Shown here in pieces: positions 1 to 16,907 of a stretch of 23,036 nucleotides of DNA. The position numbers and the translations under genes were made by a program. The notes under the pieces are model-generated. The model was not told the origin of the DNA. It ran no database searches and saw only the letters and a list, made by a program, of their open reading frames with translations. Within the stretch, counting starts at the first letter, position 1. Every line of letters starts with the position of its first letter. The stretch comes from a virus. The stretch is from positions 1 to 23,036 of IMG/VR virus record IMGVR_UViG_3300035204_000459. One strand, 5' to 3'.

Positions 1-1170
1 ACAAAACGTGCATGGGCAATAGTTGACGACGCATTAAAGAACAACAAAGACGACATGACTTTCGACGACATGATTGACCAACTTAAAGGCAAAAAAGAAG
101 ATCAAGTAACAGAATTAGATCCAGGTGCGGAGCCAATTGATGAACCTGTTGAACCAGCAGTAGACCATGCAATGGTTGTTAAACAGTTTTTAGCAAATCC
201 AAACAGCAGAATAATGCTTAACAAAAATATGCCTGACGAGAAAAAATATGACGTTCCAAATGCAACACCAGAAGATACAAGAATTATGACAACACTTTCA
301 GATATTGCATCTAGAATGCTAACAGACACTCCAGACGAAGACAGGGTGGCAAATTTTGCTTCTAGAGTAGCAGATCAAATGGAAAAATCCGGAATGCCTT
401 TTGATCCTAAAGATCCTGATGCTAATAAAAATAGAGATATTGCTAAGGCATTGGTAGCAAAATACGACAAGGCCTCTGAAGAAGTTGATCCAGCAGACTT
501 CAAAGCTAAAAAAGATATTAAAGGCAAACCACATTCATCAACAGAAGCATTTGAAAATTGGGTTAACGACATAGACGAATATGATAAAGAACCTACAGAC
601 GAAAAAGATAGAGAAGAAAAATTAAAAACATTACAAAATATACAACTCGATCCAAACACATCTAAAGATCCTGAAACTGTAAGAGCACTGATACAGCGTA
701 AAAAAGAACTAATGAAAAAAGAACCAGCATTTGCAGGAGAACAAGTAACATTTGAAGATATTAAACCTTATGTGTCTATGTACAAAGATGATCAAACTGG
801 TAAAATGACATATGACGTATTAGATAAAGATGGTGCATCAGCATTTAAAACAAGTGATTCAAAAGTAGCAATGGCTTATCTTTCTAAAAATTTTAACAAA
901 TTAAAAATGGATAAAGACGAAAGAATTGATCAAGGCATAGCACAACAAAAAGCAGATGCTGAAACAAATCCAGATTGGGGCAAAGATGTTGGCCCTGTAG
1001 ATACAATTGGCGACCGTTTTATGAAAAAATTTGCGAAAAAAGAATCAATAAAAGAATCAAGAACAAAAATAGTAGCGGCTATCAAAGCCAAAGCAGATGA
1101 AAACGCACAGAACATAGCAGGCGTTGAAGCAGAACTTGAGAGAATAACTCAATTAGTAAATTACCAATAA
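1..1170 (+). CDS. Large charged protein of unknown function (5' partial)
   Basis: The reading frame is open from base 1, so the gene begins upstream of the window; the first internal ATG is at 55. At least 389 residues are present. The protein is rich in Lys, Asp and Glu and low in Cys and aromatics, with many short acidic or lysine-rich stretches, and looks largely helical and hydrophilic. There is no signal peptide, membrane segment or recognisable catalytic motif. The C-terminal 60 residues (KKFAKKES onward, then alternating Ala/Glu/Ile) could form a coiled coil. It precedes gp32, separated by a 116-base gap that holds that gene's promoter. A scaffold-like or DNA-metabolism accessory role is conceivable, but nothing in the sequence shows it. 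The frame and stop are solid; the function is unknown. Confidence 0.75.
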   Translation, partial: TKRAWAIVDDALKNNKDDMTFDDMIDQLKGKKEDQVTELDPGAEPIDEPVEPAVDHAMVVKQFLANPNSRIMLNKNMPDEKKYDVPNATPEDTRIMTTLSDIASRMLTDTPDEDRVANFASRVADQMEKSGMPFDPKDPDANKNRDIAKALVAKYDKASEEVDPADFKAKKDIKGKPHSSTEAFENWVNDIDEYDKEPTDEKDREEKLKTLQNIQLDPNTSKDPETVRALIQRKKELMKKEPAFAGEQVTFEDIKPYVSMYKDDQTGKMTYDVLDKDGASAFKTSDSKVAMAYLSKNFNKLKMDKDERIDQGIAQQKADAETNPDWGKDVGPVDTIGDRFMKKFAKKESIKESRTKIVAAIKAKADENAQNIAGVEAELERITQLVNYQ

Positions 1171-1190
1171 TAGCACTTTACCAATAATAG
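1161..1190 (+). repeat. 13-bp direct repeat TTACCAATAATAG
   Basis: TTACCAATAATAG occurs at 1161-1173 and again, exactly, at 1178-1190. The first copy covers the stop codon of the upstream gene. Both lie just upstream of the -35 element predicted for gp32. The start-to-start distance is 17 bases. It may be a binding site for a regulator or simply a local duplication. Confidence 0.6.
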
Positions 1191-1193
1191 TAG

Positions 1194-1222
1194 TAGACAA
1201 TAGATAAATATAGTAGTATATT
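1194..1222 (+). promoter_or_regulatory. Predicted sigma70-type promoter for gp32
   Basis: TAGACA (1194-1199) and TATATT (1217-1222) are separated by 17 bases; each hexamer matches the sigma70 consensus at 5 of 6 positions. Transcription would start near 1229, leaving a leader of about 58 bases before the gp32 ATG. In T4 the gp32 leader is the site of translational autoregulation, so this leader is worth folding. Confidence 0.5.
1203..1210 (+). promoter_or_regulatory. Possible late promoter (GATAAATA)
   Basis: GATAAATA fits the relaxed NATAAATA late motif described for T4-like cyanophages. It lies 76 bases before the gp32 ATG and inside the spacer of the predicted sigma70 promoter. This could give gp32 both early and late expression. 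In AT-rich DNA such an octamer can arise by chance. Confidence 0.3.
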
Positions 1223-1286
1223 ATACGTAATGTTTAATATACATTTAGGCAGAAAACAAACATAGGCACACAAGGAGGCTTACATT

Positions 1287-2246
1287 ATGGCTACATTAGC
1301 TGAAATAAGAGCGAAGTTAAAATCTCAAGAAGTGAATCGCTCCACTTCATCAACAGGCGGAGACAACGCCATCTATCCACACTGGAATATAAACGAAGGC
1401 TCAGAAGCAGTTGTTAGATTCTTACCAGATAAAGATCAAGGTAACACTTTTTTCTGGACTGAAAGAAACATGATCAAACTACCTTTTGCAGGTATTAAGG
1501 GTCAAACTGATTCTCGACCAATTCAGGTACAAGTACCGTGTATGGAAATGTACGGAAAAACTTGTCCAGTTTTAACAGAAGTTAGACCGTGGTTTAAAGA
1601 TAAAAGCATGGAAGACATGGGTAGAAAGTATTGGAAAAAGAAAAGTTATATATTCCAAGGCTTTGTTGTTACAAATCCATTAACTGAAGAGACAGTACCA
1701 GAAAATCCAATTAGAAGATTTATAATTGGACCACAAATCTTTAATATAATTAGATCGGCATTACTTGATCCTGAAATGGAAGAGTTACCAACTGATTATG
1801 TAAAAGGTGTTGACTTTAGAGTTAATAAAACAACTAAAGGTGGATACGCTGACTACTCAACATCTAAATGGTCAAGAAGAGAACGTGCTCTTGATGAAAC
1901 AGAAAGAGCAAATATTGATAAATTTGGCTTACATAATTTATCAGACTATAGACCAAAAGAACCATCTGAAGCAGAAATAAAAATAATCAAAGAATTATTT
2001 GAAAAATCTGTTGAGGGTGAGGCTTATGATCTTGAGAAGTATGGACAGTATTATAGACCTGCAGGCGTTGGTGCTAGAATATCTGTACCAACAGCAAGTA
2101 GACCTGCTCCAGTTGAGAAGACTGCTGATCCGGTAAATGCAGAAGTAAAAGTTGCAGAAACGGTAACAGCATCGGCTCCAGCAGGCGATAGTGCTAAAAG
2201 AGCAGAAGACATCTTGAAATTAATAAGATCAAGACAACAAAAATAA
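1287..2246 (+). CDS. 32: Single-stranded DNA-binding protein gp32
   Basis: This is the T4-type helix-destabilising protein that coats ssDNA at the fork and during recombination, working with UvsX and UvsY. The N-terminal segment (MATLAEIRAKLKSQ) resembles the basic self-association domain. The core follows with VVRFLP (residues 42-47), CMEMYGKTCPVL (85-96) and KKKSYIFQGFVV, typical of the marine T4-like version. The start is set by a strong AAGGAGG at 1272-1278, eight bases before the ATG. Two features differ from T4: only two cysteines (C85, C93) remain where T4 has a His-Cys-Cys-Cys zinc site, and the protein ends in an Ala/Pro-rich linker followed by a basic tail (KLIRSRQQK) instead of an acidic one. 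At 319 residues it is close to T4 length (301). Confidence 0.92.
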   Translation: MATLAEIRAKLKSQEVNRSTSSTGGDNAIYPHWNINEGSEAVVRFLPDKDQGNTFFWTERNMIKLPFAGIKGQTDSRPIQVQVPCMEMYGKTCPVLTEVRPWFKDKSMEDMGRKYWKKKSYIFQGFVVTNPLTEETVPENPIRRFIIGPQIFNIIRSALLDPEMEELPTDYVKGVDFRVNKTTKGGYADYSTSKWSRRERALDETERANIDKFGLHNLSDYRPKEPSEAEIKIIKELFEKSVEGEAYDLEKYGQYYRPAGVGARISVPTASRPAPVEKTADPVNAEVKVAETVTASAPAGDSAKRAEDILKLIRSRQQK

Positions 2247-2257
2247 TCTAACATTAC

Positions 2258-2291
2258 CAAGGCCTTAAAATTATTGACAGTTAAGGCCTTG
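2258..2291. repeat. Perfect 11-bp inverted repeat between gp32 and uvsX
   Basis: CAAGGCCTTAA (2258-2268) and TTAAGGCCTTG (2281-2291) are perfect inverted copies around a 12-base loop. As RNA this is a strong hairpin just after the gp32 stop. No U-run follows, so an intrinsic terminator is possible but not classical; an mRNA-stabilising or processing hairpin also fits. Each arm contains the 8-bp palindrome AAGGCCTT, spaced 24 bp apart, so the two could also act as DNA operators. The right arm lies within the promoter spacer and the left arm upstream of the -35. Confidence 0.8.
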
Positions 2292-2302
2292 TGTATTATA
2301 AT
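2274..2302 (+). promoter_or_regulatory. Consensus sigma70 promoter upstream of uvsX
   Basis: TTGACA (2274-2279) and TATAAT (2297-2302) are both perfect consensus hexamers at the optimal 17-base spacing. The predicted transcription start near 2309 is only about three bases before the ATG of the small membrane ORF. The -35 lies in the loop of the inverted repeat, and the right arm of the repeat fills part of the spacer. This is the best match to the host consensus that I see in the window and is probably an early promoter for the recombination genes. Confidence 0.75.
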
Positions 2303-2311
2303 AAGGAGACT

Positions 2312-2410
2312 ATGAAAACAGAAATTAAAAAAGCAATAGATTGGATATTATACAAACAAGTACCTGCTTGGGTATTAATTGTGATAGTTATCCTTTGGAT
2401 TCTATTATAA
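2312..2410 (+). CDS. Small membrane peptide (32 aa) ahead of uvsX
   Basis: A 32-codon ORF with a basic, amphipathic N-terminus (MKTEIKKAIDW) and one hydrophobic segment (VPAWVLIVIVILWILL, residues 17-32) that reaches the C-terminus. It reads as a single-pass inner-membrane peptide with its N-terminus in the cytoplasm. AAGGAG (2303-2308) lies three bases before the ATG, a short spacing. Its stop (2408-2410) is two bases before the preferred uvsX start, which has no good ribosome-binding site of its own, suggesting translational coupling. The coding evidence is composition, RBS and position. No family was recognised; it could be a pure leader peptide. Confidence 0.5.
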   Translation: MKTEIKKAIDWILYKQVPAWVLIVIVILWILL

Positions 2411-2412
2411 AA

Positions 2413-3471
2413 ATGACAAAACCGTTTGACGTAACAAAATTTCGAAAGAGTATTACGAAGTCTATTTCAGGACTTGGTATAGGATTTAATGATCCAACTG
2501 ATTGGATTTCTACAGGAAACTATGCATTAAATTATTTAATAAGTGGTGACTTTAACAAAGGTGTTCCATTAGGCAAAGTAACAGTATTAGCAGGTGAATC
2601 GGGATCGGGTAAATCATTTGTAGCATCAGGCAATTTAGTACGTAATGCACAAAAGCAAGGCATTTATGTAATACTAATCGACTCTGAAAATGCACTAGAC
2701 CAATCATGGCTAGAAGCACTTGGCGTAGATACTGACGAAAAGAAACTTTTAAGATTAAGTTTATCTATGGTTGATGATGTTGCAAGAACAGTTTCAGATT
2801 TTATGAAAAGTTATAAAGATGAACACGCTGATGACAAAGAAAACGCACCTAAAGTATTAATTGTAATTGATAGTTTAGGTATGCTATTAACACCAACCGA
2901 TGTTGACCAGTTTGAAAAGGGAGAAATGAAGGGCGATTTAGGTAGAAAACCTAAAGCCTTAACAGCACTTGTAAGAAACTGTGTTAATATGTTTGGCTCT
3001 TGGAACGTTGGGCTTATAGCAACTAATCACACATACGCATCACAAGATATGTTTAATCCTGATGATAAAATATCAGGAGGACAAGGTTTTATATATGCAT
3101 CAAGTATTGTAATTGCAATGAAAAAATTAAAATTAAAAGAAGACGAAAAGGGTAACAAAATTACTGACGTTAGAGGTATTAGGGCGGCTTGTAAAGTAAT
3201 GAAAACAAGGTTTTCAAAACCGTTTGAGTCAGTACAAGTAAAAATTCCGTGGGATACAGGAATGGATCCATATAGTGGATTAGTAGACTTATTTGAGAAA
3301 AAAGGTATACTAGTACAAACAGGAAACAGGTTAAAATACGTAGATAGTGCTGGTAAAGAGCACATTGAGTTTAGAAAAGCCTGGGTCGGAGATAAATTAA
3401 TGATGTTGATGAAAGATTTTGATAAATTATCAACAACAACAACCGAACCCAAGGACAAAAATAATGGCTGA
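2413..3471 (+). CDS. uvsX: UvsX RecA-like recombinase
   Basis: This is the phage RecA/Rad51-family strand-exchange ATPase; it forms filaments on ssDNA with help from gp32 and UvsY and drives recombination-dependent replication. Walker A is GESGSGKS at residues 61-68, and a Walker B strand, KVLIVIDSLGML, follows about 90 residues later. The chosen start at 2413 gives MTKPFDVTKF, which fits the family N-terminus, and 352 residues. An in-frame start at 2341 would add 24 residues that overlap the membrane ORF and look unlike UvsX. No clear SD precedes 2413, consistent with coupling to the peptide ending at 2410. The C-terminus is Lys/Asp-rich and overlaps the next gene by eight bases. Confidence 0.9.
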   Translation: MTKPFDVTKFRKSITKSISGLGIGFNDPTDWISTGNYALNYLISGDFNKGVPLGKVTVLAGESGSGKSFVASGNLVRNAQKQGIYVILIDSENALDQSWLEALGVDTDEKKLLRLSLSMVDDVARTVSDFMKSYKDEHADDKENAPKVLIVIDSLGMLLTPTDVDQFEKGEMKGDLGRKPKALTALVRNCVNMFGSWNVGLIATNHTYASQDMFNPDDKISGGQGFIYASSIVIAMKKLKLKEDEKGNKITDVRGIRAACKVMKTRFSKPFESVQVKIPWDTGMDPYSGLVDLFEKKGILVQTGNRLKYVDSAGKEHIEFRKAWVGDKLMMLMKDFDKLSTTTTEPKDKNNG

Positions 3472-3697
3472 CATGACTCATGAAAATATTGAACGTATAT
3501 GGAACTCACTACTACATTATCTACCAGAAAGAACTAAATCAGACGCGGCAATTGACTTTGTAAAAAGTTTAGAAGATATAGGTGTCGAAGAACGTGAAAT
3601 TAAAGCATCTGCAGATTATGACCCTAAACTAGAAGAAGCAATTAATACTGTGTTTAATGAGGATGAAGACGAAGATGATTATTATAATGAGGAATAA
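3464..3697 (+). CDS. Small acidic conserved hypothetical protein
   Basis: 77 residues starting MADMTHENIERIWNSLLHYLPERTK. AAGGA (3451-3455) eight bases upstream supports this ATG over one 45 bases earlier that would run through uvsX sequence. The N-terminal two thirds appear helical; the C-terminus is a strongly acidic tail (NEDEDEDDYYNEE). It overlaps uvsX by eight bases and shares a base with the next ATG (TAATG). The style and position match small proteins that follow uvsX in marine T4-like phages. The acidic tail could contact the DNA-binding machinery, but that is inference; function unknown. Confidence 0.8.
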   Translation: MADMTHENIERIWNSLLHYLPERTKSDAAIDFVKSLEDIGVEEREIKASADYDPKLEEAINTVFNEDEDEDDYYNEE

Positions 3698-4155
3698 TGA
3701 ATTGGTATAACGAAGTAAGTAGAAATTTAGATAAAATTCCTGATTGTATCAACTATTTTGATACAGAATTATTACAAGCAAAAAAAGAAATTAAAATATT
3801 CGGTAGTCTTGAAAAGGCAAGTGCTTCTTTACCAGGTATTGTAGAGCAAAGATTTTCACAATTACAACAACTAGAAGCAATATTAGAATATCTTAACATT
3901 GAATTAAGACGTATAAGATCTAAAGCATTTATAAAATATTTTGAACATTACAATAGAGCATTGAATAGTAGAGAAGCCGAAAAATATGTTGACGGTGAAA
4001 CAGAAGTAATTGATTATCAAAAACTTATAAATGACTTTGCTTTAGTAAGAAACCAATGGCTAGGCATTACCAAAGGTTTAGATCAGAAACAATGGCAAAT
4101 AACAAACATTGTTAAATTGCGAGTAGCGGGTATGGAAGATGCCAGTATCAAATAG
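3697..4155 (+). CDS. UvsY-like recombination mediator candidate
   Basis: 152 residues, almost entirely helical, with a probable coiled coil around residues 45-80 (QLQQLEAILEYLNIELRRIR) followed by SKAFIKYFEHYNRAL and a C-terminal block ending VKLRVAGMEDAS. In T4, UvsY is a 137-residue helical protein that loads UvsX onto gp32-coated ssDNA. Size, helicity and position three genes after gp32 and two after uvsX fit that role, and some marine T4-like phages carry a similar protein labelled as UvsY-like. I see no direct residue match to T4 UvsY, so the name is tentative and the symbol is left empty. It overlaps the following gene by 17 bases. Confidence 0.5.
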   Translation: MNWYNEVSRNLDKIPDCINYFDTELLQAKKEIKIFGSLEKASASLPGIVEQRFSQLQQLEAILEYLNIELRRIRSKAFIKYFEHYNRALNSREAEKYVDGETEVIDYQKLINDFALVRNQWLGITKGLDQKQWQITNIVKLRVAGMEDASIK

Positions 4156-4396
4156 AAAAAGAAAAAAATATTACAAAATCGCTAAACTGCAACTGTATGG
4201 ACCAGATATGGAACCACAATTTGTATTTGAGGGTTGGGTTGAGGATTATCCAGAAATAAAAAAATTATATAATGAAGATAAACTTAAAATAATATCCGAC
4301 ATAGACGAAACAATGACCATTAAAGCAAAATTTACAGAAAAAGAATTTTTAATATGGCGTCTTAAAAATTCACACTGGTTAACATATGAACAATAG
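4139..4396 (+). CDS. Hypothetical protein, 85 aa
   Basis: A small basic protein beginning MPVSNRKRKKYYKIAKLQLYG, with alternating beta-like segments (LQLYG, FVFEGWVE) and a charged second half containing DIDETMTIKAKFTEKEFLIW. It overlaps the upstream gene by 17 bases and the downstream HAD gene by 11, as expected for a genuine member of this run. No motif or family was recognised. The basic N-terminus might bind nucleic acid, but this is only compositional. Confidence 0.65.
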   Translation: MPVSNRKRKKYYKIAKLQLYGPDMEPQFVFEGWVEDYPEIKKLYNEDKLKIISDIDETMTIKAKFTEKEFLIWRLKNSHWLTYEQ

Positions 4397-5006
4397 AATT
4401 ATACTTACAGACGTAGACGGAGTATTATTAGAATGGGAGCACCATTTTACTAAATGGATGTTACAACGAACACTCTTTGATGAAAAAGGAAGCAGATATC
4501 ACCCATATAGATTGTTAAAAGATAAAGAAAACACTTACGAAATGGCAGAACGTTTTGGTGTTACTATACCAGAAATTAGAAAAGAGATTAGAGAGTTTAA
4601 CAGAAGTGCTTGGATGGGAACACAACGGCCTATGCCAGATTCACAAACTTGGGTTAAACTACTACACGCAGAAGGTTGGACTTTTATACCAATTACATCA
4701 CAAACATCTGACAAACCAGCACAAGAATTACGTAAAAAACGACTAGAAGAACTATTTGGCAAACAAGTTTTTTCAAACTACCACATATTAGGTACAGGAG
4801 CAGATAAAGATTCAGCATTAGCAGAGTTTCACAACACAGGGTTATATTGGGTCGAGGACAAGCCTAAGAACGCTTTAGCCGGGCTCAATTACGGTTTAAA
4901 GGTTATATTATACAATCGTCCTTACAACCAAAACTTCGGCCATCCCGAAATTACTAGAGTAAATAATTGGAAAGACATACACCAAATTTTATCAGGAAAA
5001 AAATGA
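4386..5006 (+). CDS. HAD-superfamily phosphatase
   Basis: The N-terminal DVDGVL has D9 and D11, the nucleophile and acid/base pair of HAD hydrolases. ITSQTSD near residues 103-109 fits motif II (Thr/Ser), K141 in ADKDSA could be the motif III lysine, and VEDKPKNALAG has the motif IV acidic pair E157/D158. A helical cap lies between residues 20 and 85. The 206-residue length is usual for small HAD enzymes acting on nucleotides or sugar phosphates. It lies between recombination genes and the glycan island and shares ATGA with the following glycosyltransferase. A deoxynucleotidase (nucleotide pool) or a sugar-phosphate phosphatase is possible; the substrate cannot be read from the sequence. Confidence 0.75.
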   Translation: MNNRIILTDVDGVLLEWEHHFTKWMLQRTLFDEKGSRYHPYRLLKDKENTYEMAERFGVTIPEIRKEIREFNRSAWMGTQRPMPDSQTWVKLLHAEGWTFIPITSQTSDKPAQELRKKRLEELFGKQVFSNYHILGTGADKDSALAEFHNTGLYWVEDKPKNALAGLNYGLKVILYNRPYNQNFGHPEITRVNNWKDIHQILSGKK

Positions 5007-5836
5007 CAACAGACATACCAACAATATACGTAGGATACGATCCAAGAGAAGACGAACCTTATGAAGTACTAAAATATACAGCACAAAAACACGCATCGGG
5101 TCCAATAAACGTATACCCGATCAAGCAAGATTTATTAAGACGAATAGGATTATATAGACGAGCATGGCAATTAGGTAGTTCAGCACTACCAAGTCCTGTA
5201 GATCCTAAAAATGATATACAACACAGAGATCAATCAGATGGCAGACCATTTGCTACTGACTTTTCATTTTCAAGATTTTTAACACCATTTTTACATAGAT
5301 TAGAAGGTTGGGCAGTGTTTATGGACTGTGATATGTATTTTAGAAGTGATCCTTTAGAGTTATTTGAAAAATACAATGATCCGGGATATGCGATGTATTG
5401 TATTAAACATAATCATACCCAAGCATCAAACGAAACCCATAAAATGTATGGTAATGAACAATACAATTATAATCGTAAAAACTGGTCTTCAGTAATAATG
5501 TATAATTGTAGTCATCCAGCACACAAATATCTTACTGTGGATGATGTAAGTACAAAATCAGGAAGATGGTTGCATAGATTTGAATGGATTGAAGACTATG
5601 CTCGTGCAAACAATCTTAAGTTTGATGACCTTATAGGTAATCTACCAGAAGAATGGAACTGGTTAGATGGACATAGTTCAGCAGATATTGATGCTAAAAA
5701 TGTTCACTTCACAAGAGGTGGCCCGTGGTTCAGAGGACAAATATGGGAACCACTTGATGAACAATCAGAAAAATATGCAGTGGAATGGGAATCTATAAGA
5801 GACGAATATAGAGAATCTAAAAATTCCAATGCATAA
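5003..5836 (+). CDS. GT-A type glycosyltransferase (DxD)
   Basis: 277 residues from the ATG that overlaps the preceding stop (ATGA); a start 36 bases earlier would lie inside the HAD gene. The N-terminal IPTIYVGYDPRE is a Rossmann-like first strand. The central WAVFMDCDMYFRSDP contains D108-C-D110, a metal/nucleotide-sugar DxD of the kind seen in GT8-like GT-A enzymes. SRFLTPFLHR just before it fits the usual donor-site helix, and a C-terminal HFTRGGPWFRG resembles the substrate-closing His/Gly segment of such enzymes. It would transfer a sugar from a nucleotide donor to a cytoplasmic acceptor. It opens the glycan island. Confidence 0.75.
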   Translation: MTTDIPTIYVGYDPREDEPYEVLKYTAQKHASGPINVYPIKQDLLRRIGLYRRAWQLGSSALPSPVDPKNDIQHRDQSDGRPFATDFSFSRFLTPFLHRLEGWAVFMDCDMYFRSDPLELFEKYNDPGYAMYCIKHNHTQASNETHKMYGNEQYNYNRKNWSSVIMYNCSHPAHKYLTVDDVSTKSGRWLHRFEWIEDYARANNLKFDDLIGNLPEEWNWLDGHSSADIDAKNVHFTRGGPWFRGQIWEPLDEQSEKYAVEWESIRDEYRESKNSNA

Positions 5837-6270
5837 TGAACTGGGAAAAATTAAGAAAATCTCATTATCACAAAGAACCGGTTGAATACATTTACGCAAC
5901 TGGCATTTTTAATCTTAAAGAATACGATAAACTTTACGAAAACCAAAACAACCTTTCTCACCAAATTTGGCAAGACTTTGATACCAAATATAAAATTGGT
6001 TTTGAATTTTTTAAAGACTTACGTGAGTTTAATAAAAATAAAGAAGTAATTTGTTTATGGTTTTTTAAAGAGAGATCTGATAACAATAAAAATAATGCCA
6101 TTGAACTAGAAGGAAAAAATATTATGTATACTCCTAATACATTTTTTATAACTAAATCTAAAAACATAAAAATAAATGATAGAGAAAAACAATGGCCTTA
6201 TAGACCAGTTTTACAATTAGATTTAAGCATAAAAGAATACAATAAAATCAGAAAAATGGTAAACAACTAA
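5836..6270 (+). CDS. Conserved-style hypothetical protein, 144 aa
   Basis: It starts by sharing the last base of the upstream stop (TAATG), so it is likely co-translated with the glycosyltransferase. It is rich in aromatics and charge, with no membrane segment. Notable segments are EVICLWFFKERSD (residues 70-82) and a C-terminal beta-like stretch with NTFFITKS and RPVLQLDLS. The latter vaguely recalls the double-stranded beta-helix of 2OG-Fe(II) enzymes, but no HxD...H triad is convincing, so I do not assign that function. It meets the minus-strand methyltransferase tail-to-tail 11 bases downstream. Function unknown. Confidence 0.7.
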   Translation: MNWEKLRKSHYHKEPVEYIYATGIFNLKEYDKLYENQNNLSHQIWQDFDTKYKIGFEFFKDLREFNKNKEVICLWFFKERSDNNKNNAIELEGKNIMYTPNTFFITKSKNIKINDREKQWPYRPVLQLDLSIKEYNKIRKMVNN

Positions 6271-6281
6271 TAAGAGACACA

Positions 6282-6953
6282 TCATGATGGTCTATAAAAT
6301 ACTATATCCGGCCAAATTTTTATAAGAATTTTAAATCCTAACGTTCGAAGAACATACTTTTCAATCTCTAAATTACTTGAGCCATATTTTTTTGTATTAT
6401 TAAATTCAAGCATAAGAAACTTTACGTACGACTGATTTTCATCATTTATTGTTAATGTTTTTTTAGCACCTTCAAGCACACGCATTTCATATCCTTCTGC
6501 ATCTATTTTTATCATATCTACATCATCATAATTCCAATAATCAATATTAAACATTTGAACATCTTGAATATCATTAGATTCTTTTTCTATTCTTGTATTT
6601 TGTGTTTGACTTTCTTGTACTAAAGACACATTACAAAGTTTATCTCCTATTGCAAGTCTATTGCAAGTAACATGATTAAACGGATTTAAGTTTTTTTGTA
6701 AACATTCAAAAGTTGTTTTATTTGGTTCAAAAGCAATCACACGCTTACAATAAGGTTGTATTGCCTTGCTCCAAGTACCGCACCAAGCACCTACATCTAA
6801 AACAGTTTTAAATTTTTTATTTTGTGAATTACAATATTGTACAAAACTTTTTAAACATTTATCTTGCATATGTGGAGCACCTTTTTTTCTCCATTGTTCT
6901 ATTTGAGCATCGTCTGATGGTAGCCAAAGATCGTTTATTTTTTCTATGTTCAT
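6282..6953 (-). CDS. FkbM-family SAM-dependent methyltransferase
   Basis: 223 residues. SAM-binding motif I is VLDVGAWCGTWS (51-62), followed by RVIAFEPN (71-78) with the acidic residue that binds the SAM ribose. DMIKIDAEGYEMRVLEGA (146-163) is the diagnostic FkbM block. FkbM enzymes typically O-methylate sugars in polysaccharides or natural products. Here the likely acceptor is a glycan built by the neighbouring transferases, perhaps as a cap. It is the last gene of a three-gene minus-strand block and overlaps the upstream gene by four bases. The first 40 residues are a family-variable extension. Confidence 0.85.
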   Translation of the reverse strand: MNIEKINDLWLPSDDAQIEQWRKKGAPHMQDKCLKSFVQYCNSQNKKFKTVLDVGAWCGTWSKAIQPYCKRVIAFEPNKTTFECLQKNLNPFNHVTCNRLAIGDKLCNVSLVQESQTQNTRIEKESNDIQDVQMFNIDYWNYDDVDMIKIDAEGYEMRVLEGAKKTLTINDENQSYVKFLMLEFNNTKKYGSSNLEIEKYVLRTLGFKILIKIWPDIVFYRPS

Positions 6954-7762
6954 AAAATACCTTTACCCATTAAAATTTCTATAACAGTTCCGTTTGTAAA
7001 TTCTTCAGGTGTAAATTGTTGATAGGCTAAACTATTTAACCATGGTTCTGGGTCAGCATAAAAAGGTTCTTCTATATCTGCTAAATGTAAATTACCCATT
7101 GCCTTAGCAAAACTTTTTTCATCACAAAATACAGGTTTACCCATACACACTGCTTCAATGGCACTAATTGAACAACTTGTTACACACGCCCAAGCATCTT
7201 TTAAATCTTCAGAAAGTGGAACTGTTGCCTCACTTGGTCCTGATGTTCCTCTACCTCTGGGTTTTTCTCTAACCTTAATTGGCCTGTCTGTATATCTTTT
7301 AATTTCTTCTACTGTTTCTTGTATCCAGTTTGGCCTATCTAAATAATTGTGTATTCCTGTTGAACTAGGACAAACTAATATATGAGATCCTGTTAAGGTT
7401 GGTGCTTTTATTGTAATATTAAACTTGTCAAATCTATCAGACTTACAATCTTTTATAAAAGGAACGTGTATTCTACTTTTACAAATACGCCAATAATGGT
7501 TGTCTGGTTTTAAATTATTATTATCAAATCTTCCAAAATATGGTGTATCAGTAAACCAAAATTGCTGTTTACGTGCTTCTAATTTTTTAATTAGTTGTAA
7601 GTTATTATTAACAAATCCCCAAAACATTGAATTAGCTAAAGGCTCTGTCGCAACACTATTATCATTTACTATAACTTGTTCGGGCCAAGATTTTTCAACT
7701 CCATTAAAAACTTCCCACGCCTTACTATTTGGATTATTAAATGGTGCGTAAATTGTTAGCAT
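6950..7762 (-). CDS. GT-B-like glycan protein, paralogue A
   Basis: 270 residues. The C-terminal half has a strand VREKPRGRG, then DAWACVTSCSISAIEAVCMG with KPVFCDE, then ADIEEPFYADPEPW and SLAYQQFTPEEFTNG. The S/T-S-x-x-x-x-E-A...GKPV pattern is like that of KpsC/KpsS, CDP-glycerol-transferase and other GT-B capsule enzymes, where it forms the donor-site helix. Three other proteins in this window share the same ordered signature, so this is an in-genome paralogous family. It shares ATGA with the FkbM gene and overlaps the SGNH hydrolase by 26 bases. Likely a cytoplasmic glycan-building enzyme; donor and acceptor unknown. Confidence 0.7.
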   Translation of the reverse strand: MLTIYAPFNNPNSKAWEVFNGVEKSWPEQVIVNDNSVATEPLANSMFWGFVNNNLQLIKKLEARKQQFWFTDTPYFGRFDNNNLKPDNHYWRICKSRIHVPFIKDCKSDRFDKFNITIKAPTLTGSHILVCPSSTGIHNYLDRPNWIQETVEEIKRYTDRPIKVREKPRGRGTSGPSEATVPLSEDLKDAWACVTSCSISAIEAVCMGKPVFCDEKSFAKAMGNLHLADIEEPFYADPEPWLNSLAYQQFTPEEFTNGTVIEILMGKGIL

Positions 7763-8402
7763 CTATAAATTCTTTCAGTTTGTTTGCCCATTGTGTATGT
7801 CCTTCTATTGACGGGTGTGGATCTTTTGGACTTACAATCATGTTTTCTTTCATTACAAAATCATAATGACTGCTATTAAATTTAAAAAACCTTTTTTCGT
7901 CTATGCTTTCAACTATTTTATTAAAGTCAGAATTGTTCAAATTTACTGCATTAGGTAGAGCATTATACATTACATATGGAATTTTGTTTAATTTAAAATA
8001 GGTTTGTAAGTCAAAAACATGATCTAAAAAATTCATTGTAGCAGTATCATCAATATCCCATCCATGGTTTGAATTAATAAATCTAAGATGATCTGCAACT
8101 TTCCAAGTACGCCAAGTTAACTGCATATTAGGTATTCTTCCTTTTTTCCAACCATCGTTAGTAACATAATCATTTCTAAACTGACTAGACCAACCTATTA
8201 CTGCAAACGTGTCTGTTGCTCCGTTTTGTTCAAACCATAATTTTGTAGTAAAGCTGATCCGATCATTGCCTCTGCCTCCCATAGCTAGATTAAATAATTG
8301 TAAATTATATTGTTCAGCAAGTATTTTTGTTACAAATGTATTAACATCGTCTTTAGGACGAGGACCTAAAAAACTACAACCATTTGAAAACAATTTAGAC
8401 AT
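7737..8402 (-). CDS. SGNH/GDSL-family hydrolase
   Basis: 221 residues. Block I is SNGCSF with nucleophile Ser10. Block II is NLAMGGRGND (38-47), with the oxyanion glycine and the Asn. IGWSS (69-73) lies near block III. Block V is KDPHPSIEGH, giving D194 and H196 of the triad. There is no signal peptide, so it acts in the cytoplasm or is carried otherwise. Members remove acyl groups from sugars or lipids; an O-deacetylase or acetyl-transfer role in glycan tailoring fits the neighbours. It heads the minus-strand block and diverges from the GT61-like gene across 29 bases. Confidence 0.8.
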   Translation of the reverse strand: MSKLFSNGCSFLGPRPKDDVNTFVTKILAEQYNLQLFNLAMGGRGNDRISFTTKLWFEQNGATDTFAVIGWSSQFRNDYVTNDGWKKGRIPNMQLTWRTWKVADHLRFINSNHGWDIDDTATMNFLDHVFDLQTYFKLNKIPYVMYNALPNAVNLNNSDFNKIVESIDEKRFFKFNSSHYDFVMKENMIVSPKDPHPSIEGHTQWANKLKEFIDANNLRTI

Positions 8403-8431
8403 ACTGCTATTTTATAGTATAATTATTTAAA
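8394..8431. promoter_or_regulatory. Divergent promoter region with overlapping -10 elements
   Basis: Plus strand: TATAAT at 8418-8423 with a partial -35, TTTAGA, at 8394-8399 (18-base spacing); the start would fall near 8430, almost on the ATG at 8432. Minus strand: TATACT (8421 down to 8416) or TATAAA (8416 down to 8411) precedes the ATG at 8402, with no good -35. The two -10 elements overlap, so the two directions may compete. The plus-strand match is only moderate. Confidence 0.4.
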
Positions 8432-9526
8432 ATGCAAACAATGAAAAATATTACCAGCATAAAATACTTCTTAGATCGTTTTGAAACAGTGGATAATGAG
8501 TACTCTTTTGACGTGAAATATCACGAGAAGGCACCTAAAACACATTTTCATAGTTTGCCAACTTTTGTTGCTGAGTTTAGGAACTGTTCAGTTAATACTT
8601 TGCCTTGTTTAATTACTGAGGATAGACATCTTATAACTGAAAATGTTTGGCCTTTACTACACAAATACAAACATAAACCACAAAAAATTCATGGCTTATG
8701 GAACGAATGGACTGAACCTACTATCGAAATTAAAATCCCACCAATTAAAAAACAACTTGAAGGCGCAGGTAGATTTGTTTGGTTACCTATAGACAAAGAG
8801 AGTGCAAACAATCCATGGCATATATGGATTGACGTTATATCAAAATTTAGATTAATAGAAAAGAGAGGTGTATTAAATTTTTCAGAATTCATTTATATAT
8901 TAAGCAATCCGAGTGCTTACTTTGATAGAGTTGCCAAAGAAATGTTTCCAGATTTAAAATATTATGTAATGCCAGAAGGAGAAACTTGGCGTTTCCAACA
9001 TTTAATTGTTCCATCAATGAGCAATCATGATGATGGTGTAACAACACCATATCTTCCATTGTGGCTAAACCATTTTAAAGGACTGTTTGGCTTTAAAGGC
9101 TTAGAGCCACACAGAAAAATAATTGTATTAAGACCAGGTGCAAAAACAAGAAAACTAGTTAACTCTGATGAATTGATCCTAGCATTAAAAGGTTGGGAAA
9201 CAGTTGTATTAGAAAATATGACTATAAAAGAACAATTTAAAACTTTTGCAGAGGCAACTCACATACTAGCGGCTCACGGTGCAGGACTTGTAAACTTGCT
9301 TTGGTGCAGACCAGATACAAAAGTAATTGAAATACAAGATAGAAAAATGCTACATAAAAAAGTTTATCCTTTATTATCTCATCATTTAGGATTAAAACAC
9401 GAATTATACCTAGCAACAACAATACCAATTGGATATCAAAATAAAAAACCTAAAGGGGTCAAAAGAATCAATGACTTAATAAACTTTGAGGTTAATATAC
9501 CAGATTTGATTAGACTTTTGGATTGA
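8432..9526 (+). CDS. GT61-like (DUF563) glycosyltransferase
   Basis: 364 residues; an in-frame ATG at 8441 is an alternative start and would leave more leader after the predicted promoter. The diagnostic block is THILAAHGAGLVNLLWC (277-292) followed by KVIEI, typical of the GT61/DUF563 fold. A strand-loop RKIIVLRPGAKTRKL (228-242) precedes it, matching the basic phosphate-contacting loop of the family. GT61 enzymes include xylosyl- and GlcNAc-transferases of eukaryotes and capsule enzymes of bacteria. No signal peptide or membrane anchor is seen, suggesting a cytoplasmic enzyme. It begins the rightward part of the glycan island; the sugar specificity is unknown. Confidence 0.8.
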   Translation: MQTMKNITSIKYFLDRFETVDNEYSFDVKYHEKAPKTHFHSLPTFVAEFRNCSVNTLPCLITEDRHLITENVWPLLHKYKHKPQKIHGLWNEWTEPTIEIKIPPIKKQLEGAGRFVWLPIDKESANNPWHIWIDVISKFRLIEKRGVLNFSEFIYILSNPSAYFDRVAKEMFPDLKYYVMPEGETWRFQHLIVPSMSNHDDGVTTPYLPLWLNHFKGLFGFKGLEPHRKIIVLRPGAKTRKLVNSDELILALKGWETVVLENMTIKEQFKTFAEATHILAAHGAGLVNLLWCRPDTKVIEIQDRKMLHKKVYPLLSHHLGLKHELYLATTIPIGYQNKKPKGVKRINDLINFEVNIPDLIRLLD

Positions 9527-9545
9527 TATAGTTTAAAATTATAAT

Positions 9546-10361
9546 ATGATTTATTGTGTAAAAACTGAAAGACATAACACAGAAAAGTACATTGAAAATA
9601 TAGCTAGAGGTTTACCAAACTCTAAACTTGTATCATATAAAGAAACAATTAATTCAACCGATGCTAAAAAAGTTGCGTTTATGGGGTTTTTGCGAGGAAG
9701 TAATTTAGTATATAGATGGGCCGAAACAAAAGGAATAGACTTCTATTATCTTGATAGGCCTTATTGGGGAGAAAGTAGAGGTACACCTTACTGGATGAGA
9801 TGTACTAAAAATCAACACGTTAAAACAATCGTTGATAACAAACCCGATGATAGATTTAAACAAACATTTAAAAATAAAATACTTCCTTATCATAAAAACG
9901 GAAAATATATTTTAGTCGTTCCACCTAGTCATTCAATTGCATTAATGTTTAATAGTGGTTCATGGTTAGAAGATACACTAAAAATATTGAAGGAGAATAC
10001 AGATAGAGAAATAGTTATTAGAGAAAAACCTTATAATCCTAAATCATTTTTTGATAGTGAAGGAAAGTTAATGCCTGGACCAAGTGCAAATAAACAACCA
10101 CAAAAACCATTTGAATGGGATCAAGTTCATGCAGTTGTAACATTTAATAGTTCAATTACAATTAAAGCATTAACAAACGGTGTACCTTGCTTTGCTAATT
10201 TTGAAAACCCTTGTTTGCCTATATGTGAGCAAGACTTTAGTAAAATAGAAACACCTATATACGAAGATCCTAGACCAGTGTTTCATTCACTTGCTTATGG
10301 TCAATTTACACAAGAAGAATTTAGAAGCGGGTACGCTATGGAGATATTAGATGGACGTTGA
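9546..10361 (+). CDS. GT-B-like glycan protein, paralogue B
   Basis: 271 residues, nearly the same length as paralogue A and collinear with it: a DRPYWGESRGTPYWMRCTKN segment matches TDTPYFGRF...YWRICKS there. The C-terminal half gives IVIREKPYNP, then HAVVTFNSSITIKALTNG with VPCFANF, SKIETPIYEDPRP and SLAYGQFTQEEFRSG. It is a putative GT-B-type capsule or LPS glycosyltransferase. Only 19 bases separate it from the GT61-like gene, and it overlaps the next paralogue by 11 bases, so the pair looks like a tandem duplication that has since diverged. A TATAAT directly before the ATG is too close to serve this gene as a promoter. Confidence 0.7.
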   Translation: MIYCVKTERHNTEKYIENIARGLPNSKLVSYKETINSTDAKKVAFMGFLRGSNLVYRWAETKGIDFYYLDRPYWGESRGTPYWMRCTKNQHVKTIVDNKPDDRFKQTFKNKILPYHKNGKYILVVPPSHSIALMFNSGSWLEDTLKILKENTDREIVIREKPYNPKSFFDSEGKLMPGPSANKQPQKPFEWDQVHAVVTFNSSITIKALTNGVPCFANFENPCLPICEQDFSKIETPIYEDPRPVFHSLAYGQFTQEEFRSGYAMEILDGR

Positions 10362-11355
10362 GATATTTAGACGTACAGTAAAAGATCGTAGACGTGGCGC
10401 TAGTTGGGATCTTTTAAAATATATGGCAGAAGGAATTAAAGCTGTTGGAGATAATCCTATTATGGTTAATGAAAATAAAACAGGTTCATGGACTGAAAAC
10501 GAAATGGAGCCTACTGCTAAAATAGGTTGTATGTTTGGCTACGGTGGTTCAAAACAAATGCATCATACTAAAGGTAGACGAAGGGATTTAGTTGAACGTG
10601 CAAAGAAAAAAGGCATTTACATTATTACATTTGATGGGGGCATACTATCAAGTTTTGGCAATACAATAACTGATCCTAATCACCATTGGCGTGTAGCATT
10701 ATATTCTCCTATGAACAACGGAAACTTTTTAAGTGATAATAGTCCACCAGATAGGTGGGAAAAAATGAGAGCATTGTGGAAAATAAAATACGAACCGTGG
10801 CGGAAATCCAATCCAGAAGATCCAATATTATTTGTACTACAACCGAAAGATAATTGGAGTATGAACGAATTAGATCCTATTGATTGGTTTAATGATGTAT
10901 ATAAAAAACTAAGACCATTAACAAAAAGAAAATTTTTAATACGTCCACACCCAAATCACATGGCCGCAATGGAAAATAGAAAAAACGAATTTCCTAAAGA
11001 TTGTGAACTTATAATAGGACAAAAATTCTTTAGTGGCGACGAGAAAAAGCATTATAGATTCAACTTCCAAGACGCATTAAATAATTGTCATGCTGTTATT
11101 ACTCACAACTCTACTGCTTCCATTGATTCCTGCATCCGTGGCATCCCTACCTTTGTTACATCAGATCTTGCTATTTGTTGGCCTGTTGGGAACACTGTTT
11201 TAGAAGATATAGAAAATCCAAAATACCCTAACAGAACACAATGGGTTTATGATTTAGGTTATAAACAATGGACAGAAAAAGAAATTAAAGATGGCACAGT
11301 GTTTAAACGTTTTAAAAATAAATTATTTCCATTATATAAGGCAAACAATGAATGA
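10351..11355 (+). CDS. GT-B-like glycan protein, paralogue C
   Basis: 334 residues, the longest of the four paralogues. An early GCMFGYGGSKQMHHTKGRR segment and ITDPNHHWRVALYS align with the equivalent block of paralogues A and B. The C-terminal half shows FLIRPHPNHMA, HAVITHNSTASIDSCIRG, IPTFVTS, EDIENPKYPNRTQWVYDLGY and KQWTEKEIKDG. The RPHP plus HNSTASI pattern is very like KpsC/KpsS-type Kdo transferases and other GT-B capsule enzymes. It probably adds a sugar in a polymer or core pathway. It overlaps both neighbours, giving a coupled block with the sulfotransferase. A stretch near 11100-11160 looks less A-rich than its surroundings. Confidence 0.7.
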   Translation: MDVEIFRRTVKDRRRGASWDLLKYMAEGIKAVGDNPIMVNENKTGSWTENEMEPTAKIGCMFGYGGSKQMHHTKGRRRDLVERAKKKGIYIITFDGGILSSFGNTITDPNHHWRVALYSPMNNGNFLSDNSPPDRWEKMRALWKIKYEPWRKSNPEDPILFVLQPKDNWSMNELDPIDWFNDVYKKLRPLTKRKFLIRPHPNHMAAMENRKNEFPKDCELIIGQKFFSGDEKKHYRFNFQDALNNCHAVITHNSTASIDSCIRGIPTFVTSDLAICWPVGNTVLEDIENPKYPNRTQWVYDLGYKQWTEKEIKDGTVFKRFKNKLFPLYKANNE

Positions 11356-12223
11356 AAAGCATATACAACCATTAGGTAAAAGAATATCGAATCCTGAGAA
11401 ATATCCGCGGAGAATCAGGATTCTAAAATATCAGTATAACGATTGTCCATACTTAATATCAAGTTTTCCTCGTTGTGGACGTACTTGGGTGAAATATTTT
11501 TTAGGTTATTATATTGCAAAAAAATACAAAGTTAAATTTACACAACGATTAGAAGTAGATAGATTTAGTTTTTTTGCCAAAAACTCTTACAAGCCGTGTA
11601 ATATACCTCTAATATTATTTAGACACGATTATCTAAGTGTTGTAGGAAATATTCCATGGGAGGAATATTTTAATATAGTGAAAAAAAATAAACTTTTATT
11701 TGAAGAAGATATGGAACAACAAAAAATAATATATTTGTTTAGAGATCCAATAGATGTATTGTTTAGTTATTGGCCATACTTACAAGATATTCCTTATAAA
11801 AATTTTGAATGCCCAAAGCATGAAAATATTATAAGTTTTGCTGGAGAAAAATATTGGGGCATGGACGGCATTATTAATTTTATGAATTTACAATTAGATC
11901 ATCATGACAAACACAAAAAGAAAAAACTAATTATAAAATATGAAACCCTTAAACAAGGGGACAAGGAATGGAAAAAAATAATAAACTTTATATTTGGGGA
12001 GTTTAATGAAGAAGCATTTGAATATGCTAAAGAACAAACTACTTGGAATAAACTGCGACAAGAAAATAATATCAATGTACCCGAAAAATTAACTTTTTTT
12101 AGAAAAGGTGGATCAAATTATATAACTGAATTACCAAAGGATCAACAAAAAATATTATTAAATTGGCCAGGATTAGCAAAATTAAATGCAAGAATAAAAA
12201 AAAATTATGACTTATATTGTTAA
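11348..12223 (+). CDS. PAPS-dependent sulfotransferase
   Basis: 291 residues from the ATG at 11348; a start 57 bases earlier would lie in the paralogue C gene. YLISSFPRCGRTWVKYFLG contains the 5'-phosphosulfate loop (39-47, family form S-Y/F-P-K-S-G-T-T-W). IIYLFRDPIDVLFSYW (127-142) is the 3'-phosphate-binding block with R132 and S140. Both are in the order and spacing of the Sulfotransfer_1 family. It would move sulfate from PAPS to a hydroxyl or amine, most likely on a glycan, given the transferases around it. PAPS would have to come from the host. No signal peptide is seen, so action is cytoplasmic. It overlaps the upstream gene by eight bases. Confidence 0.85.
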   Translation: MNEKHIQPLGKRISNPEKYPRRIRILKYQYNDCPYLISSFPRCGRTWVKYFLGYYIAKKYKVKFTQRLEVDRFSFFAKNSYKPCNIPLILFRHDYLSVVGNIPWEEYFNIVKKNKLLFEEDMEQQKIIYLFRDPIDVLFSYWPYLQDIPYKNFECPKHENIISFAGEKYWGMDGIINFMNLQLDHHDKHKKKKLIIKYETLKQGDKEWKKIINFIFGEFNEEAFEYAKEQTTWNKLRQENNINVPEKLTFFRKGGSNYITELPKDQQKILLNWPGLAKLNARIKKNYDLYC

Positions 12224-12293
12224 TGACAAGTGTATCAAATTTAATGAAACAGCTACAAGGACAGGATTAATATGTGTGGAATATATGGAATAA
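12207..12293 (+). pseudogene. Possible 28-codon ferredoxin-like remnant
   Basis: An ATG ORF spanning the sulfotransferase/asnB junction begins MTYIVNDKCIK, close to the start of bacterial 7Fe ferredoxins (typically MTYVV-x-x-x-CIKCK). It then loses the cysteine pattern (FNETATRTG) and stops. If real, it is a decayed fragment of such a gene; a chance match is quite possible because it overlaps coding sequence at both ends. No dedicated RBS is seen. Confidence 0.2.
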
Positions 12294-13936
12294 CAGCAAG
12301 AAATCCTGAATTTATAAATCAATATATTAACAAGTGTAAACATAGAGGACCCGATGGGCAAAGTGTTTGGCACGACGATACTGTTACATTAGGACATAAT
12401 CTTTTAAGTATTATGGCTGATCCAAGTGTATCTAAACAACCATGGCGTACACCTAGAGGCAATATATTAACTTACAACGGTGAAATATTCAACTACTACG
12501 AACTTAAAGAAAAATATAAAAACTTTAAAGACACAACAGGTTGCGATACAGAACTATTAGCATGGGGTTTAGATACGTATGGATTAAAATTTATAGACGA
12601 GATAGATTCTATGCATGGCTTTGCATACTATGACATGACAAAAAAAGAAATTATATTAAGCAGAGACCATGCAGGTATAAAACCTGTGTACTATGCAGAA
12701 ACAAAAGAAGGCCTAGTGTTTGGTTCTGAAATAAAAGGTATGTTAGATAAAGTCCCTAATTCACGTTCCATGGATAATTTAGCAATGAGTTGTTTGGCAC
12801 ATACAGGTATTAATGCTACACGTAATACTGTGTTTAGTGGAATTAAAAAATTATTAGCAGGTGAGACAATAATTTATGACATATCAAATAAAAAAATAAA
12901 ATCACGTAAAAGAATTTTTATAAAACCAATTAGTAATATAGGTTTTGATCCTGCAGGATTTAGAAGTATGGCACGTAAAACAGTAAAAATGTGTAGTATT
13001 GGAAGAAGAAAAATTGGAGTATTTTTAAGTGGTGGGTTGGATTCAAGTTTAATTGCATACGAACTTAAAAATATAATGGGAGAAGCAAACACTTTTACTA
13101 ACCAGATGAACCCAAATATAATTAGTGGTGGTGAAAACTATAACGAAGATGCCATCTGTGCTCAAGTATTAGCTGATCAAGAAAACTTTAATCATAAAGA
13201 AGTAATAATTACACCTAAAATAATAGAAGACTACTGGGATGATTCAATTTATTTTATGGAACAACCTGCATATAATCCAAGTCTTGCCATGTATTGTTAT
13301 ACTAATAAAGTATTACATGACAATAGTATAGTAGTAACAATGGCTGGTGATATGGGTGATGAAATACTAGGTGGGTATCCAAAATATTGGAAAATGAAAA
13401 AACTTAAATTTAAAAGCTGGGCCGCTATTGTTGATCATTGGACTCGCAGAATAAAACGTCCAATAACACATATTAGGGCAGGTGTTAGTGGATTGAAGCC
13501 ATGGTTGCTTGTGGATACGAATAATGTGCGTGAGGAACTACTCAACTGTTATCCAGACGATTTATGGAACCCCGAAGATCCTGTAGCTTCATATATGGCA
13601 TTAGATTGTGTTACTCAAGTACCAGAAGAATTTTTTAATCGAAACGACAAATATGGTATGGCATATGGTATGGAAGGACGCTTTCCATTAGCAACTAAAA
13701 TGTTTATGCAATATTGTATGAACATACATAGTCTTTTTAAAATCGGATCAGCAAAAGGAGATACAAAAATGTTATCAAAAATTGCTTATAAAGAATGGTT
13801 ACCTAGAAAAATTATTAGAAAACAGAAAACTGGCTGGACTGTGCCATTACGAGAATGGTGGAATAAAAATAGCAAAGCAGATATACCAGCACTGATAGTA
13901 AAAGATTGGATTAAAACTTATAAAATAAAAACATGA
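12272..13936 (+). CDS. asnB: Glutamine-hydrolysing asparagine synthetase (AsnB family)
   Basis: 554 residues, the normal length for AsnB. The N-terminal glutaminase starts MCGIYG (Cys2 is the nucleophile after Met removal), with HRGPDG, YNGEIFNY and TGCDTE. The C-terminal synthetase has the ATP pyrophosphatase loop VFLSGGLDSS and the conserved AGDMGDEILGGYP. AGGACAGGA about seven bases upstream provides the RBS. The enzyme makes asparagine from aspartate, glutamine and ATP. In glycan clusters, close relatives amidate uronic acids or other carboxylates (as with WbpS-like enzymes), so here it may tailor a sugar rather than feed the amino-acid pool. It is followed by a transferase through ATGA. 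Confidence 0.88.
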   Translation: MCGIYGITARNPEFINQYINKCKHRGPDGQSVWHDDTVTLGHNLLSIMADPSVSKQPWRTPRGNILTYNGEIFNYYELKEKYKNFKDTTGCDTELLAWGLDTYGLKFIDEIDSMHGFAYYDMTKKEIILSRDHAGIKPVYYAETKEGLVFGSEIKGMLDKVPNSRSMDNLAMSCLAHTGINATRNTVFSGIKKLLAGETIIYDISNKKIKSRKRIFIKPISNIGFDPAGFRSMARKTVKMCSIGRRKIGVFLSGGLDSSLIAYELKNIMGEANTFTNQMNPNIISGGENYNEDAICAQVLADQENFNHKEVIITPKIIEDYWDDSIYFMEQPAYNPSLAMYCYTNKVLHDNSIVVTMAGDMGDEILGGYPKYWKMKKLKFKSWAAIVDHWTRRIKRPITHIRAGVSGLKPWLLVDTNNVREELLNCYPDDLWNPEDPVASYMALDCVTQVPEEFFNRNDKYGMAYGMEGRFPLATKMFMQYCMNIHSLFKIGSAKGDTKMLSKIAYKEWLPRKIIRKQKTGWTVPLREWWNKNSKADIPALIVKDWIKTYKIKT

Positions 13937-14799
13937 AATATAAAGTCATAACGACATTTAGGCCTAGCGATTGGGACAAATATGCAAAACGTATGGTACA
14001 ATCTGTACTTGACAAATGGCCTAATGCTGATATAACTGTTTACTATCAAGATCAAAAACCTGATTTTAATCAAAACGTTACTTGGGTTGACATAGACAAC
14101 GCCAATCCAAAACTACACGAATTTAGAGAAAAATATGAAAATGATCCTGTTGCTGTAGGTAAACTAAACGAAATACCCGGGGGTGTAAGGCGTTCTCCAC
14201 GTTTAGCAACAGAAGGTGGACTTGATGCAAAAAAAGAATCTTACTTGTGGAATGCAGTTAAATTTAGTTACAAAGTATCTTGTGTTACACACGCAGTAAA
14301 AACATATAAAGATTATGATTATGTAATTTGGATTGACGATGATACCTATACATTTAAAAATGTGCCAATGCAATTTATAGAAAGTATATGTCCTAATAAT
14401 ACATTAGTTACGTACCTTGGTCGAGAACGTAGTATAAAAGATGGCAAATATCCTGAGTGCGGCCTTGTTTGTTATAATATTAAACATCCACTTGTACAAA
14501 ACTTTGTTACAGATTGGGAAAAACTTTATACATCAGCGAACATATTTGACTTACTTGAATGGCATGACTCATATGTGTTCTGGCACATGACTAAAGAGTA
14601 CAGACAAAAGCACAATGTAAAAGTAAACGATATAGGTTATGCTAAAGGTGTTATGGGACATCACGTATTTGTAAACAGTGAGCTTGGACTTTATATTGAT
14701 CATTTTAAAGGAGATAGAAAAGATGCTAAAAGTTCACGTGCAGAGGACATTGGAAAAAGTTCTAGCATAGCAAAAGTTGATTATTGGAAAAACAAATGA
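13933..14799 (+). CDS. GT-A-like glycosyltransferase (DDD motif)
   Basis: 288 residues, translationally coupled to asnB (ATGA). It begins MKYKVITTFRPSDWDKYAKRM, a nucleotide-sugar-binding first strand. YDYVIWIDDDTYTFKNVP has three aspartates (135-137) in the DxD position, and a Cys-containing CGLVCYNIKHPLV follows where GT-A acceptor loops lie. The C-terminus carries HHVFVNSELGLYIDHFKGDR, with a His that could complete metal binding. It is probably a cytoplasmic hexosyl- or related transferase of the island. It is not obviously paralogous to the GT at 5003-5836 beyond the general fold. The substrate is unknown. Confidence 0.65.
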   Translation: MKYKVITTFRPSDWDKYAKRMVQSVLDKWPNADITVYYQDQKPDFNQNVTWVDIDNANPKLHEFREKYENDPVAVGKLNEIPGGVRRSPRLATEGGLDAKKESYLWNAVKFSYKVSCVTHAVKTYKDYDYVIWIDDDTYTFKNVPMQFIESICPNNTLVTYLGRERSIKDGKYPECGLVCYNIKHPLVQNFVTDWEKLYTSANIFDLLEWHDSYVFWHMTKEYRQKHNVKVNDIGYAKGVMGHHVFVNSELGLYIDHFKGDRKDAKSSRAEDIGKSSSIAKVDYWKNK

Positions 14800-16417: not shown

Positions 16418-16856
16418 AATAGTTTTTCCAACTATAAAAATTAGCATTATGGTTTGAGTAAGGGTCTTTCCAAACTTGCATTTGATATAAATGTACCATT
16501 TCGTGTGCAAGTGTTTCTATAAAATCTTTCCACATAGGAAATTTATTGTGTAATTCTATTCTATAATCTAAATGATCACCTAAATGATAAGGAATTACTT
16601 TTTGATTGAACCTTCCTTTTCTACATTTTCTATTATCCCAATTTACAACGCATAGTCCCCAATCATAAATCATTTTTCTTACAATAAGTTTTGGTTCTTG
16701 TAAATTGCCACCAAACATACCTCTATTCAACGTTCTAAACCAACTTTGACATTGTTCTACTGTAGGTGTAAACTGTTTTATATTCTTACGCTTAGCCAGA
16801 GCTTTTTTAACTCTGAATCTTAACGTTTTATTGCGTTTTTGTATCTGCTTTTTCAT
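16386..16856 (-). CDS. SprT-like zinc metalloprotease
   Basis: 156 residues. LAHEMVHLYQMQ contains HEMVH (118-122), two zinc ligands and the catalytic Glu; H136 in SNHNANFYSW is the likely third ligand, matching the SprT pattern H-x3-F-x2-W. The Lys/Arg-rich N-terminus (1-27) could bind DNA. The C-terminal zinc ribbon of cellular SprT proteins is absent. SPRTN-type enzymes cut DNA-crosslinked proteins; phage versions are common in T4-like marine genomes and probably act in replication-linked repair. The position next to UvsW supports that. It is transcribed against its neighbours and overlaps the gene at 15665-16417 by 32 bases. Confidence 0.8.
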   Translation of the reverse strand: MKKQIQKRNKTLRFRVKKALAKRKNIKQFTPTVEQCQSWFRTLNRGMFGGNLQEPKLIVRKMIYDWGLCVVNWDNRKCRKGRFNQKVIPYHLGDHLDYRIELHNKFPMWKDFIETLAHEMVHLYQMQVWKDPYSNHNANFYSWKNYFRQHNLRLRQ

Positions 16857-16859
16857 AGG

Positions 16860-16887: not shown

Positions 16888-16907
16888 ATTATTATTACTA
16901 TTTAATC

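Follow-up and report, generated by a model that had tools for sequence, protein, structure and literature searches.

Composite promoter-terminator cassettes are reportedly carried by T4-like phages of the RB49/phi1 type, where they are said to occur in many copies within plastic regions. In a passage of PMC4503421, Arbiol 2010 and Comeau 2014 are cited on such PeSL (promoter early stem-loop) cassettes. The PeSLs of RB49-type phages are the closest known thing to the element analysed here; a literature search for an overlapping promoter and terminator hairpin gave no match. A scan of RB49 found several interleavings of a promoter with a stem-loop (with the -10 in the loop, or with the hairpin inside the spacer). 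In one case, at the regA/43 boundary, the loop contains the -35; this site (18504-18532) is annotated as a hypothetical early promoter. The gp32 terminator of the jumbo T4-superfamily phages (121Q, RaK2, GAP32, Vibrio 2.275) is a hairpin of the same kind at the same place as ours, but it has no promoter and in some cases has better U-runs (121Q, GTTTTATT). As for the start of translation, Zheng et al. interpreted a -10 box about 12 bp before the start codon as indicating a leaderless bacterial gene (PMC3160421).

The window (the whole stretch of DNA that was analysed, 23,036 nucleotides) is a virus fragment from an uncultured marine phage. The cultured relatives are jumbo phages of the T4 superfamily (PA5oct, Atu_ph07, RaK2, 121Q, GAP32), with up to about 50% identity across the full-length gp32. 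Matches in bacterial genomes were restricted to a few metagenome bins (Rickettsiales, Pelagibacter, Neomarinimicrobiota, and 'bacterium TMED46'), of which the closest ones carrying relatives are labelled Rickettsiales and Pelagibacter; these relatives may be binning errors. The gene order in the window is gp32 (single-strand DNA-binding protein; 1287-2246, + strand; PHROG 1192, E = 4e-61), an ORF for a 32-amino-acid single-pass membrane peptide (2312-2410, +), uvsX (recombinase; 2413-3471, +; PHROG 97, E = 5e-70), and uvsY. The 32-amino-acid ORF is kept in relatives, and by its codon-position differences (0.28, 0.047, and 0.394) it was taken as protein-coding; 29 junctions carry it, with 24 distinct proteins among them, and others lack it. 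Separate transcription of gp32 is plausible, since a promoter-like TAGACA-N17-TATATT lies upstream of it (1194-1222), apparently at the same place as TTGACA-N17-TATATT in the relative G002.

Between gp32 and uvsX, a perfect sigma-70 consensus, TTGACA-N17-TATAAT, is located on the + strand at 2274-2302, with the -35 hexamer at 2274-2279, the 17-nt spacer at 2280-2296, and the -10 hexamer at 2297-2302. It is the only 12/12 match among the 95 promoter-like sites at 1-20000 of the window, and also the only one across the entire record. Interleaved with it is an inverted repeat of 11 bp with 100% complementarity, of which the left arm CAAGGCCTTAA (2258-2268, +) starts directly after the gp32 stop codon and the right arm TTAAGGCCTTG (2281-2291, +) takes up the promoter spacer, so that the -35 sits within the 12-base loop AATTATTGACAG. 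The promoter and the hairpin are thus superimposed on about 45 bases. The predicted RNA fold of the hairpin has -17.2 kcal/mol (z = -2.75). In 400 dinucleotide shuffles of the window, the average yield per window was 0.015 perfect promoters and 0.033 perfect stems of 9 bp or more with TTGAC in their loop, and the combination of the perfect promoter with an enclosing stem did not occur at all. An Rfam search of the window gave no match, and a consensus scan of the window gave no canonical terminator. From the usual 7-nt distance after the -10, the transcription start was predicted near 2309; a Shine-Dalgarno-like AAGGAG (2303-2308, +) lies before this position and would, if the predicted start is correct, be contained only in read-through RNA. 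The original prediction of an ideal promoter with its -35 in the loop and the right arm in its spacer is therefore borne out, and the element does lie upstream of uvsX, although the gene next to it is the 32-amino-acid membrane ORF. The same prediction had regarded such a promoter as unusual at this place, which does not agree with the relatives: sigma-70-like promoters, strong by sequence, precede uvsX and a primase-like gene throughout the clade.

By two scans of viral contigs (IMG/VR), about 99 distinct gp32-uvsX junctions were collected, and the nested anatomy (TTGAC in the loop, right arm into the spacer) was found in 62 of them, the window included. The spacing is 17 bp in nearly all of the 62, and the -10 is TAnnnT. 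When 39 junctions were aligned, no variation was seen in the gp32 stop codon, in TTGAC, in most columns of the -10, or at a few other single positions. The arms are of several unrelated sequence types (AAGGCCTT, AGGCCCTG, GGCTCCAG, GTGGCTATACT, and GACCCTGATT), with a median predicted stem strength of -21.7 kcal/mol. The eight bases 3' of the stem usually contain three Ts; that is, when compared with a terminator made of a GC-rich stem and a following U-tract, the stem is present and the U-tract is weak. Intrinsic termination in the window's clade is therefore doubtful, as no proper U-tract can be recognized. With PeSLs the element shares a strong sigma-70-like promoter (12/12 with a 17-bp spacer, and kept in the 62 junctions) fused at a gene boundary with a stem-loop that is physically combined with it. 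The PeSLs differ in their many copies in plastic regions; the window-type element sits in a single fixed copy at a core gene boundary, its loop always contains the -35, its U-tract is weak, its arms diverge by covariation, and a leaderless-type start is often joined to it. When 12 fragment contigs (38-75 kb) were searched by pattern, the nested form was seen only at the gp32 boundary among the matches listed (two of these being known as pattern matches). The element would work like the RB49 interleavings, but because it stays in one copy at a boundary between core genes, we did not file it as a PeSL.

The pairing of the arms was evaluated with stem pairs registered from TTGAC, and with the largest single-type alignment. 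Note that this register favours pairing, so that the absolute pairing is inflated while the contrast between G-U and A-C is unaffected. Stem positions 5-9 were 90-100% Watson-Crick, several of them using two or three types of pair. When left and right arms were re-paired between rows, the Watson-Crick share was halved at variable positions; at positions 7 and 9 all 62 rows were Watson-Crick, compared with about 31 and 26 expected, respectively. Parsimony on the gp32 tree gave 70 double changes from one Watson-Crick pair to another, which are not independent events, as they partly reflect wholesale replacement of the arm type. On the + strand, the same analysis gave 38 gains of G-U vs three gains of A-C, and a count over 43 distinct stems in which both kinds of mismatch were treated alike gave 42 G-T vs four A-C. 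The largest single-type alignment, which represents one subfamily, had 98.4% of its cells paired and a covariation score of 0.252 (0.146 when shuffled; none of 500 shuffles was as high), and the score collapsed once the partner was slid. With the 39 sequences aligned by MAFFT, RNAalifold predicted no structure, because in that alignment the different arm types are out of register by one base. The compensatory changes and the preference for G-U on the + strand point to a + strand RNA hairpin in gp32 read-through mRNA, as had originally been proposed, rather than to a DNA operator or cruciform.

The hairpin and the promoter also occur apart. In the isolates Phosso, Vibrio 2.275, GAP32, RaK2, 121Q, Atu_ph07, and PA5oct, a hairpin follows gp32 directly, and a promoter joined to it was seen in none of the isolates examined. 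In about 12 distant contigs, the hairpin is closed by tetraloops of the UUCG or GNRA type. In a sister clade of 11 in the gp32 tree, which includes two contigs whose gp32 and uvsX lie nearly adjacent, most members have a GC-rich hairpin and, only a few bases after it, TTGACA-N17/18-TATAAT. The window's clade (68 in the gp32 tree) has either the superimposed form or, in about 10 contigs, an insertion in the form of a gene of about 270 amino acids; most of the latter lack the hairpin and have TTGACA-N17-TATAAT just before uvsX or the small ORF. In L066, an inserted gene separates the parts: the hairpin has remained next to gp32, and the promoter next to uvsX. From these arrangements, the two look like separable functions packed together; the switch between read-through and new initiation in the original prediction is a hypothetical one. 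In eight contigs with the inserted gene (L034, L041, L093, L104, L123, L130, L133, and L160), the uvsX promoter overlaps the 3' end of this gene without a hairpin. In L084 (1637-2743), an ORF of 312 amino acids, whose start, read by eye, we take to resemble a nucleotide-sugar epimerase, is inserted between the small ORF and uvsX. On both the gp32 and the uvsX tree, many forks of which are weak, at least 25 changes of hairpin type were counted, and the genes inserted at the junction vary; both are suggestive of a shuffling of neighbouring genes, and only suggestive.

We consider the element, with a probability of about three in four, to be a composite boundary, at which the RNA hairpin forms the 3' end of the gp32 mRNA and the DNA promoter starts the unit of the small peptide and uvsX. 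The two arms in gp32 transcripts would pair, and the resulting hairpin would mark the 3' end of the message and shield it, either by terminating transcription (alone or together with a factor) or by impeding decay. In double-stranded DNA, these bases would serve as a strong promoter for the main sigma factor of the host and would start, near 2309, the downstream unit of the small membrane peptide and then uvsX. Both signals can fit because the promoter is indifferent to the sequence of its spacer (the right arm) and the hairpin is indifferent to the sequence of its loop (the -35). Alternatively, the hairpin may not be a 3' end and may instead act in the interior of a longer read-through RNA, where a nuclease would process it or where it would control the translation of the small ORF or uvsX. 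The weak U-tract and the selection acting on the + strand RNA would agree with this, as would the AAGGAG located 3' of the window stem, with which the read-through RNA could be translated; however, the stem does not cover this AAGGAG, the hairpin after gp32 is kept despite quite different downstream spacing among lineages, and in L066 it stays with gp32 where the promoter stands apart. We regard this alternative as quite unlikely.

The readings in which the arms work as DNA fare worse. The original prediction had proposed paired operator sites, i.e. a dimeric repressor or activator binding to the AAGGCCTT palindromes and controlling the promoter, and indeed both arms in the window are palindromic on either side of the -35. 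AAGGCCTT occurs in the window in exactly two copies (2259-2266 and 2283-2290). Of the 62 nested junctions, however, only 10 have both palindromes and only 20 have one or both; such arms as GGCTCCAG or GTGGCTATACT show no relation to AAGGCCTT in sequence, the arms change freely while still pairing, and the mismatches are strand-asymmetric. Since the palindromes are not kept, the operator was rejected as very improbable. A cruciform driven by supercoiling, which would expose or hide the -35 and so switch the promoter, would suit the perfect complementarity of the inverted repeat and its centre close to the -35. In a cruciform both strands must fold, so that G-T and A-C would be equally harmful, and the observed 38 vs three gains led us to reject it as extremely unlikely. 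A hairpin of + strand single-stranded DNA, for the priming of replication or as a single-strand promoter, would tolerate G-T pairs as well, and the neighbours are replication genes. In single-strand promoters, both elements lie within the folded duplex; here the -10 is outside the hairpin, and the tetraloops of distant relatives are RNA-typical, which leaves little room for this explanation.

Under the composite boundary, the transcripts initiated at the promoter of the element would be without the hairpin, and in most relatives having the small ORF they would be leaderless. Among 27 nested cases with the small ORF, the A of its ATG falls on position 7 after the -10 in 19 and on position 6 in three; the start in L105 was scored at position 1, and an in-frame ATG is at 7. 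The six bases between the -10 and the ATG differ among relatives (AACAAC, ATTAAT, TATAGT, AAGAGC), so that it is their length and not their sequence that is kept. This placement of the ATG at the predicted start suggests that, in the majority of the relatives having this ORF, the promoter-started mRNA is leaderless. The likeness to the leaderless bacterial genes (PMC3160421) lies in the distance of 6-7 nt between the -10 and the ATG in most of these relatives; the differences are that a hairpin is superimposed on the promoter here, and that the distance is 10 nt in the window, as also in three near relatives. Two RNAs with two routes of translation might then exist, namely a read-through RNA with the hairpin (and, in the window's subclade, with the Shine-Dalgarno-like sequence) and a leaderless RNA started at the promoter, the leaderless start codon being that of the small membrane peptide or of uvsX; we offer this as a tentative and rather unlikely extension.

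Two other promoter-like sites were noticed in the course of the analysis. One is a further sigma-70 promoter that is conserved, with a sequence near TTGACAAAATCCTNTATAGACAGTAAAAT; it is located at 1501-1529 of L185 and was also found in L171, L174, L175, L180, L181, L188, L189, and L191. It lies at the 3' end of a gene of 268 amino acids, just before the primase-like gene, without a clear hairpin and with an ATG about 7-9 nt after the -10; its homologous place in the window's phage is expected just beyond 23036. The other, TAGACA-N16-TATAAT, lies between divergent genes of the window (8396-8432); its -10 is followed by an ATG at position 9, possibly another leaderless start.

The composite boundary would explain why a perfect consensus promoter is found between gp32 and uvsX. 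Two regulatory codes, one read in RNA and the other in duplex DNA, would be maintained on one set of bases across a group of marine phages, and the natural covariation among the relatives separates the constraints of the two. The relatives also provide many natural variants for gauging how far the overlap of a terminator-like hairpin with a promoter is tolerable. The spacing between the -10 and the ATG suggests that marine phages of this group, and hence their hosts, use leaderless messages. If the reading with two RNAs is true, the balance between termination of the gp32 transcript and new initiation would set both the amount of the downstream proteins and the route by which their translation is initiated.
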